Below, piece by piece: positions 57,603 through 60,088 of a stretch of 64,000 bases of DNA. Every line of letters begins with the position of its first letter. Position 1 is the first letter of the stretch. The position numbers and the translations under genes are program-made. Under the pieces are notes generated by a model. The model searched no databases, was not told the origin of the DNA, and was given only the letters and a program-made list of their open reading frames with translations. Origin of the DNA: Bacilli bacterium (GTDB taxonomy: Bacteria; Bacillota_I; Bacilli_A; RF39; UBA660); assembly GCA_017528315.1 (NCBI GenBank), contig JAFXOW010000059.1:1-64000 (forward strand). The letters are read 5' to 3'.

Positions 57603-57678
57603 AGCACCCTCCACAAATATAATAACATAAAAATATCTAAATTGTTCTAACTTGACAATAATTTTAATAAAATTTAGT

Positions 57679-57906
57679 ATGAATAATTTAAGAGAATTTA
57701 TTAGTTCTAAAAAATTAAAAATAAACTATATTGAAAATAAATTAAATATAGTAAATTTTGATGAAATAGTTATATTAACAGATAATAAAATAATTTTATT
57801 AAAAGATAAAAAAATGATTACTATAAAGGGATCTGATTTAACTCTTTTAAAATTAATGGAATCTGAAATATTAATAGGTGGTTTGGTTAAAATAATTGAA
57901 TTGTAG
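57679..57906 (+). CDS. yqfC: YqfC-like sporulation protein
   Basis: 75 residues. Short beta-rich protein ending in IKGSDLTLLKLMESEILIGG, the YqfC family pattern. In Bacillus yqfC is transcribed in the mother cell with yqfD, and here yqfD follows at once, which is the main support. ATG 57679 was chosen; no clear ribosome site precedes it or the TTG at 57652. TTGACA occurs at 57652-57657, but the matching -10 would overlap the ATG, so the promoter is unclear and may be of a sporulation type. Confidence 0.7.
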   Translation: MNNLREFISSKKLKINYIENKLNIVNFDEIVILTDNKIILLKDKKMITIKGSDLTLLKLMESEILIGGLVKIIEL

Positions 57907-57912
57907 GTGAAT

Positions 57913-59032
57913 ATGAATATTTATATAGTTAAAATAAAAGATAAATATTTTAAGAGACTAATTAAATATAATATTAATATTAAAAAAATAAAGAAAATAA
58001 ATGATTATTATTTATTATATCTAGATGATTTTGGATATAAAAAAATATTACAATTTCAAAAAATTTATGAAATAGAATTTATAGATTATAAAGGGTTAAT
58101 AAAATATAAAAATATTTTTAAAAATAATATTATTTTTTTTTATAATGTTTATTTTTGGTATTATTTATATTATCTTTTTATCTAATATTATTTTTGATAT
58201 TGAAATTAAAACTAATAATCAAAGTATAGAAAAATTAGTAAGGAAGGAACTTAATAAATATAATATTAATCTATTTAAATTTGTTAAAAGTTTTGAAGAA
58301 AAAGAAAAAATAAAGAAGAAAATCTTAAATAGTAATAAAGATAATTTAGAATGGTTAGAAATTACTAGATATGGTAGTAGATATATTGTAAATGTTGAAG
58401 AAAGAATTATTAAAATGATAGAATCTGATAATATACCTTGTGATATAGTAGCTAAGAAGAATGCTATAATATTAGAAATTGTTGCTAAGAATGGAAGTAT
58501 TGTCAAGAAATTAAATGATTATGTAAAAAAAGGAGATATAATAGTAACTGGAAATATTACTCATAAAGATGAAATAGTTGATCAAGTAAAAGCTGATGCA
58601 ACGATTTATGGTGAAACGTGGTATAAAGTTCATATTTCATATCCCATAAGTTTTTATGAAAAAAGCTATACTAGTAAGAAAACCAAAAGATTAACGTTTC
58701 AATTATTTAATAAAAAAATAATTATTGGTAAAACTTTTAATGATGAAGAAATAAAGGCAACTACTATAGTAAAAAGTAGATTTTTACCAGTAAAATTTAA
58801 TTTAGAAAGTGTTCAAGAAATGGTTTTAATTGATGATTTATATACGGTAGATGAAGCTTATGAAGAAGGATTGAAACTTGCAGGGGAGAAACTTTTAAGT
58901 AGTTTAGATAAAGATTCTAAAATATTAGGTCAAAAAAAATTGAAAATTATTGTGAATAATAGTACAATAGATATGGATATTTTCTTTAAGGTGTATGAAA
59001 ATATTACAGAAATAAATAGAATTGAGGAATAA
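57913..59032 (+). pseudogene. yqfD: yqfD (sporulation protein) split by a frameshift at a T9 tract
   Basis: Two frames together make a full YqfD (about 370 residues). Part 1 (57913 to the stop at 58183-58185) carries the N-terminal region with VKIKDKYFKRLIKYNI and YEIEFIDYKG. Part 2 (in frame from about 58139; first ATG 58145; ends 59032) carries the membrane helix (FGIIYIIFLSNIIF), EWLEITRYGSRYIVNVEER, and the C-terminal VDEAYEEGLKLAGEKLL. The switch point is nine T at 58133-58141; eight T would join them exactly. YqfD is an engulfment-stage mother-cell protein in Bacillus. It may be a true break, a sequencing error, or a slippage site rescued during transcription. Start ATG 57913 with AGGTGA upstream. 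Confidence 0.8.
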
Positions 59033-59034
59033 TT

Positions 59035-59637
59035 ATGAATATAAAACTTTTTCATGATGTAATGTATTTAATGGAAAATACTTGGCCTATTATAGCTATT
59101 ACTGTAATAGCACTTATATCGTTAAGAATAACATATGTAATTAAATATAAAAAGAAATTTATTGTTTATGAGGAATTATTATCATTAATTTTTGTTATTT
59201 ATATTTTAATGTTTTTCCAAATAGTAACTTATCAAGATGTTATTTCTTATGGTAATAACTTCATACCTTTTAAAGAACTTACTAGATATACATTTGGTTC
59301 TAGTTTATTTTATAAAAATATAATTGGCAATATTTTATTGTTTATGCCTTATGGTTTTTTTGCATCCTATTATTTAAGATTAGAGCGTAATGACAAATGG
59401 TTAGCTTTAGGATTAGTTTTTTTAGTATCAAGTTCTATTGAATGTGTGCAACTTTTGATTGGAAGATGCTTTGATGTTGATGATATTTTACTTAATTTAG
59501 TAGGTGGAATGGTAGGATTTTATATTTATAGAATATTAGAAATAGTAACTGATAAAATGAGTAAAAGAACAATTAGTACAATAATTACAATGATTATAAT
59601 AGTTTTAATTGTAATATTATTATATATAATGATGTGA
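59035..59637 (+). CDS. VanZ-like membrane protein
   Basis: 200 residues, five membrane segments. VanZ-family signature: NILLFMPYGFFASYYLR near 102-118 and SSIECVQLLIGRCFDVDDIL near 139-158, followed by LNLVGGMVGFYIY. VanZ-type proteins are linked to low-level teicoplanin resistance in enterococci; the general role is unknown and no resistance cluster is here. It sits between yqfD and ybeY, where phoH lies in B. subtilis, starting 2 bases after yqfD. Confidence 0.85.
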   Translation: MNIKLFHDVMYLMENTWPIIAITVIALISLRITYVIKYKKKFIVYEELLSLIFVIYILMFFQIVTYQDVISYGNNFIPFKELTRYTFGSSLFYKNIIGNILLFMPYGFFASYYLRLERNDKWLALGLVFLVSSSIECVQLLIGRCFDVDDILLNLVGGMVGFYIYRILEIVTDKMSKRTISTIITMIIIVLIVILLYIMM

Positions 59638-59644
59638 GGAGTAT

Positions 59645-60088
59645 ATGAAGATAGGTTTATTTAATGAAACAGAAATAGATATGAACGAATATTTTAAAGT
59701 GGTAAAAAAAGTTTTAAAAAAGGGTTTAAAAATTTTAAATATCAATAAATGTGAATTCAATGTAATTATAGTTCATAATGATTATATTCATGAACTTAAT
59801 AAAAATTATCGAGGTAAAGATTCAGAAACGGATGTTATTAGTTTTGCTTTAGAAGATGATAAAACTTTTAATTTGGAGTCTCGGGTTTTAGGTGATATAT
59901 ACATATCAATTGATAGAGTATATAGTCAAGCCAAAGATTATGGACATTCAACTATTAGAGAGTTATGTTTTTTGGCAGTTCATGGCATGCTTCATTTACT
60001 AGGTTTTGATCATATGAATCAAGATGATGAAAAGGAAATGTTTCAAATACAAGATAAAATTTTAGAAGAATCAGGTATAACAAGATAG
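59645..60088 (+). CDS. ybeY: Endoribonuclease YbeY (16S rRNA maturation)
   Basis: 147 residues. The zinc motif HGMLHLLGFDH near 110-120 gives three His ligands, and NKNYRGKDSETDVISFAL near 51-68 is the other family block. YbeY acts in 16S rRNA 3' end processing and ribosome quality control. GAGGAG precedes the ATG. Position after yqfC-yqfD matches Bacillus, except that phoH is missing and no dgkA-cdd-era follows. Confidence 0.94.
   Translation: MKIGLFNETEIDMNEYFKVVKKVLKKGLKILNINKCEFNVIIVHNDYIHELNKNYRGKDSETDVISFALEDDKTFNLESRVLGDIYISIDRVYSQAKDYGHSTIRELCFLAVHGMLHLLGFDHMNQDDEKEMFQIQDKILEESGITR

Follow-up and report, generated by a model that had tools for sequence, protein, structure and literature searches.

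The yqfD gene described here is divided between two reading frames that meet at a run of T, which raises the question of whether the additional base is real, whether the cell reads across it, or whether it was introduced by the assembly. If the base is real, a gene on which B. subtilis depends for spore formation has been lost here in a single, reversible step, and the locus shows this loss before decay has set in, in a group known solely through environmental genomes; if it is an error, yqfD would be mislabelled as a pseudogene on annotation. Either way, it calls for caution over frameshifts at nine-base A/T runs in AT-rich drafts that come without reads. We analysed a 64,000 nucleotide stretch of DNA (the window) and almost all of the draft genome to which it belongs, which was read in stretches (80 contigs, 1.36 Mb, 23.6% GC). 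The explanation that fits best, and one that the initial annotation did not contain, is a recent, unprogrammed slip of DNA replication at a T-run hotspot in the present strain, to which the sequence comparisons below would give about an even chance.

The split yqfD gene and its neighbourhood

The features of the locus are collected in Table 1. The run at the break consists of exactly nine T with an A on either side, and the original claim that the two parts of yqfD lie in different frames, joining when the run is one base shorter, was confirmed for both the frames and the count. Part 1 extends from a GTG at 57907, with an ATG at 57913 being the more likely start, and its frame crosses the run as I-F-F-Y-N before ending at a premature stop (58183–58185) 3' of the run; by itself it had no match to any family in profile searches. 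Part 2 stays open for 309 codons to a stop at 59030–59032 and matches the YqfD family PF06898 (profile positions ~83–89 to 379, e-value 2.9e-54). The identity of the gene as YqfD, proposed from the letters alone, is upheld by these scores: part 2 alone reaches 184.8 bits, above the curated cut-off of 25.2, and the two parts read as one frame reach 202.7 bits over profile positions 18–379, a gain of 18 bits. On the TIGR02876 profile, part 2 alone gives 163 bits vs. a cut-off of 256.7. In tblastn searches against congeners, both parts aligned collinearly with a one-frame protein at 55–64% identity. The break falls at residues 76–79 of YqfD, at the start of a hydrophobic, membrane-type segment.

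Table 1 Features of the yqfD locus, in window coordinates
Feature	Position	Strand	Evidence
yqfC (YabP/YqfC family)	57679..57906	+	PF07873, E 7e-7; TIGR02856, E 3e-5, below cut-off; order kept in congeners
yqfD part 1, N-terminal region	57907..58185	+	Open frame; aligns with congener YqfD residues 1–78
Nine-T run	58133..58141	+	Homologous codons hold exactly eight T in 9/16 congeners
yqfD part 2, membrane segment and extracytoplasmic part	58142..59032	+	Other frame, open from ~58103
Promoter-like TTGAAA-N17-TACAAT inside yqfD 3' end	58940..58968	+	Codons fixed in all congeners; promoter score
VanZ-like membrane protein gene	59035..59637	+	PF04892, E 1.5e-24; same position in congeners
ybeY, rRNA maturation RNase	59645..60088	+	PF02130, E 7.5e-43; TIGR00043 above cut-off

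The yqfC gene lies directly 5' of yqfD, with its stop abutting the yqfD start region (the PF07873 match spans 57652–57906). This is the neighbourhood of a YqfD-type gene, and the same order is found in congeners. Bacillus yqfD, a sporulation gene of the sigma-E regulon, belongs to the same family (PF06898) and follows yqfC in the same order, but it is one open frame, unlike the split gene described here. On the other side, the VanZ-like gene stands between yqfD and ybeY, an order which is kept in the genus and present in much of the family; in Bacillus, phoH occupies this place.

Relatives, constraint and the age of the break

Amongst relatives, the gene was consistently found in one piece. 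All 16 of the other genus genomes searched carry yqfD in a single frame (two of the 16 copies run into contig ends), and in nine of them the homologous codons read CTT TTT TTT ATT ATG, whilst one congener has seven T at this site and six have shorter or interrupted runs. The comparison of tract length which had been proposed with the initial annotation therefore yields an in-frame eight in many congeners and nine here. In a wider sample of the family, yqfD was present in 99 of 117 genomes and the same break was found in none except the present genome, a few short matches beginning or ending at contig ends or sitting within a longer open frame. At the level of species, with one genome each, all relatives are in frame and only the present genome is out of frame. 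A second strain of the species was also sought, where an exact pattern search of viral contigs gave no match and genome contigs returned other species only.

Further inactivating mutations in part 2, which had been named as counter-evidence in the initial annotation, were looked for over its 309 codons and none was found. Of 80 residues of part 2 that do not vary among congeners, 78 are kept and two are changed, and each congener tested in the same way showed 0 to 6 changes; in part 1, two of 10 invariant columns are changed in the present genome. We rejected an ordinary decaying pseudogene, as there is no further stop in part 2 and the constraint on it is undiminished. A clean and constrained part 2 implies a break that is very young, still segregating, bypassed, or not real.

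The other sporulation genes tested (spoIVA, spo0A and a sigG-like gene) are intact, which rules out a general loss of sporulation, and mutS and mutL are both present and intact, so that hypermutation via lost mismatch repair was also rejected. SpoIIIAE was detected in none of the 16 genus genomes in which it was sought, and its absence is therefore not special to the present genome; the genus shows an unusual sporulation set in this respect, though it does have SpoIVA, Spo0A and a SigG-like factor. In gene content and kinship the group resembles RF39, an uncultured order of Bacilli that has been predicted to sporulate (PMC10868615). In a screen of B. subtilis, a yqfD mutant formed 0% spores (PMC4703394), and in a B. 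licheniformis production strain yqfD was deleted to guard against viable spores (PMC3871023). As the sporulation machinery is otherwise kept, the loss of YqfD should hurt spore formation, and by analogy with the B. subtilis mutant the present break would be expected to impair sporulation.

A recent slip is thus supported by the single frame in 16/16 congeners, by the constraint on part 2 and by the intact state of the other sporulation genes. In the mechanism that we propose, a run which is eight T long in many congeners would have gained one T by replication slippage in the source strain of the assembly, in a change that would be very recent or still segregating. Carriers would be expected to form few or no heat-resistant spores, because YqfD would be cut after its N-terminal region, and simple reversion to eight T would be possible. 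We infer that the extra base is real in the DNA and is unselected or weakly selected. Against a recent slip, losing a sporulation gene should carry a high cost, and the present genome is one consensus sequence, in which an isolated assembly error would look identical.

Homopolymer runs, assembly error and slippage

Homopolymer runs were counted in 1131 open-reading frames of at least 100 amino acids, with expected numbers taken from synonymous-codon shuffles. Poly-T runs of eight, nine and ten occur 42, 1 and 1 times vs. 93, 25 and 11 in the shuffles, and poly-A runs of eight and nine occur 314 and 19 times vs. 424 and 124, with A10 and longer at 0 vs. about 106. Together, only two T runs of at least nine are present vs. 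about 39 expected, and both sit at the very start of an open-reading frame, in doubtful N-terminal extensions. Runs of A or T of at least nine are sharply avoided in coding sequence, the drop setting in between eight and nine, even though the GC content of the genome is 23.6%. The genes otherwise contain hardly any runs of nine T, as one would expect if the run in yqfD were a fresh and deleterious slip.

We also scanned the genome for breaks at A/T runs of at least seven and G/C runs of at least five, where frames would join upon a one-base change. The scan gave 32 mechanical candidates, and the strongest 22 of these were read by eye; all but yqfD and a tyrosine-integrase remnant proved to be spurious frames or adjacent genes that have starts of their own. 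This remnant (contig 68, 886–1996) is split at an A9 run (1548–1556), with the part upstream joined to the 3' end of a membrane protein frame to which it is unrelated; the integrase was already 5'-truncated and is a relic. Among the candidates read, no otherwise intact gene apart from yqfD was interrupted at a homopolymer.

This bears on the possibility of an assembly or consensus error, in which the true run would be eight T and yqfD intact. Such an error would agree with a part 2 that bears no sign of decay, with the intact sporulation genes and with a single frame in every relative, and it would not be surprising in an 80-contig draft with many contigs of ~1.5 kb, which is probably a metagenome bin. 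However, some 370 A/T runs of eight or nine occur in coding sequence, and among otherwise intact genes only yqfD is broken at such a run; the error rate at such runs must therefore be low, and homopolymer errors uncommon in the assembly. The lone broken gene argues against an error-prone platform but is compatible with one isolated error, and we consider an error at this site a serious contender, albeit one that we would not expect to prove correct.

The initial annotation had described the nine-T run as prone to slippage, and this was upheld. Baranov et al. described frameshifts in which a run grows from eight to nine and so becomes prone to slippage, in genomes where nine-base runs are avoided (PMC1088944). 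By analogy, the present yqfD could be a leaky 'pseudo-pseudogene', with nine T in the DNA and slippage of RNA polymerase giving some in-frame mRNA and some full-length YqfD. As in those cases, the extension of an eight-base A/T run by one base divides a gene that is single-frame elsewhere (one open-reading frame in 16/16 homologues, nine with eight T at the same site), and nine-base A/T runs are selected against in the genes of this genome (T9 1 vs. 25, A9 19 vs. 124), an avoidance which they took as a sign of slippage-prone runs (PMC1088944). A review also reports 12–50% corrected transcripts at long poly(A) runs in endosymbionts (PMC5009743). The present case differs, however, in that the run is of T, that it is known here from DNA, and that rescue requires eight or eleven U (a −1 or +2 slip), whereas homopolymer slippage mostly inserts bases, usually a single one, and no restored frame was seen in a survey of the whole transcriptome (PMC5574713). 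The avoidance of long runs could, moreover, also stem from DNA slippage.

As a sign of functional use, Baranov et al. asked that two or more homologues be split in the same way (PMC1088944), and no split copy was found in the 16 congeners or in the other family members with yqfD. Shigella mxiE and endosymbiont slippage genes (PMC1088944, PMC5009743) are like yqfD in that two open-reading frames meet at about nine T or A, but slippage has been measured in those genes, whereas the yqfD split is kept by no relative, and its use is therefore unsupported. Some leak of expression across the run is possible and a programmed device is unlikely; as an account of the locus as a whole, we regard the leaky gene as improbable.

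Phase variation would require the run to toggle between the two lengths, eight and nine T, and so to turn sporulation on and off under selection, in the form of a genus-wide contingency switch in which most cells have eight T and sporulate, a minority have nine and do not, and selection maintains the run. The eight T is found again in nine congeners, each time with CTT, the rarer choice for Leu (9/9, where CTT makes up 13% of Leu codons in these genes), and the change is reversible in principle, as is the homopolymer frame change in phase-variable genes, which are reportedly found in Bordetella. Yet the CTT signal, notable as it is at the T8, ranks only 17th of 284 conserved yqfD codon sites, and a conserved slippage site was rejected accordingly. 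The relatives are all in frame, both mutS and mutL are intact, a contingency run would usually be longer than nine T, and, unlike the homopolymer phase-variable genes, yqfD is not a surface antigen and is fixed in frame in its relatives. We therefore consider a selected switch of this kind very improbable.

Programmed ribosomal frameshifting, joining part 1 to part 2 during translation, finds an overlap of the two frames across the U run, but it would need a +1 (or −2) shift where U runs favour −1. The 91 bases 3' of the run fold no better than shuffles (z 0.51), an Rfam search gave no match, and no relative has the split arrangement, and we give this explanation next to no credence. The proposal that the run might switch or tune a sporulation gene, one of two outcomes first put forward for the locus, the other being an artefact, is not supported: the split is found in no relative, the slip required in RNA is of the disfavoured kind, no stimulator was found and the mismatch repair genes are intact. 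A recent, unprogrammed replication slip is preferred to each of these devices.

A promoter-like element in the 3' end of yqfD

Codon conservation in yqfD is at its most unusual at the 3' end of the gene. A TTG at residue 345 is shared by all 16 congeners and the present genome, though TTG makes up 6.6% of Leu codons, and AGT ACA ATA is fixed ~20 bases 3' of it, the two together making up TTGAAA-N17-TACAAT. At the homologous place the promoter score is 9 of 12 or better in 15/15 congeners (shuffles: mean 3.9, maximum 9) and in 34 of 40 other family members (shuffles: mean 14, maximum 20), in both groups more often than in any shuffle. Bacillus and relatives retain the TTG in 15 of 17 cases and match the consensus less well (TTGCAC-N17-TAAAGT in Bacillus). 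The pattern points to a candidate promoter of the sigma-A type within yqfD, which probably drives the VanZ-like gene and ybeY; the yqfD frameshift therefore need not silence the downstream genes, and the element suggests that these are transcribed independently of the sporulation gene in which it lies. One search of the literature for a promoter in connection with yqfD and phoH turned up no account of a promoter inside yqfD. Kept across many genera, the promoter-like element is more solid than the readings of the T run. An A8 run (58932–58939) lies just upstream of it.
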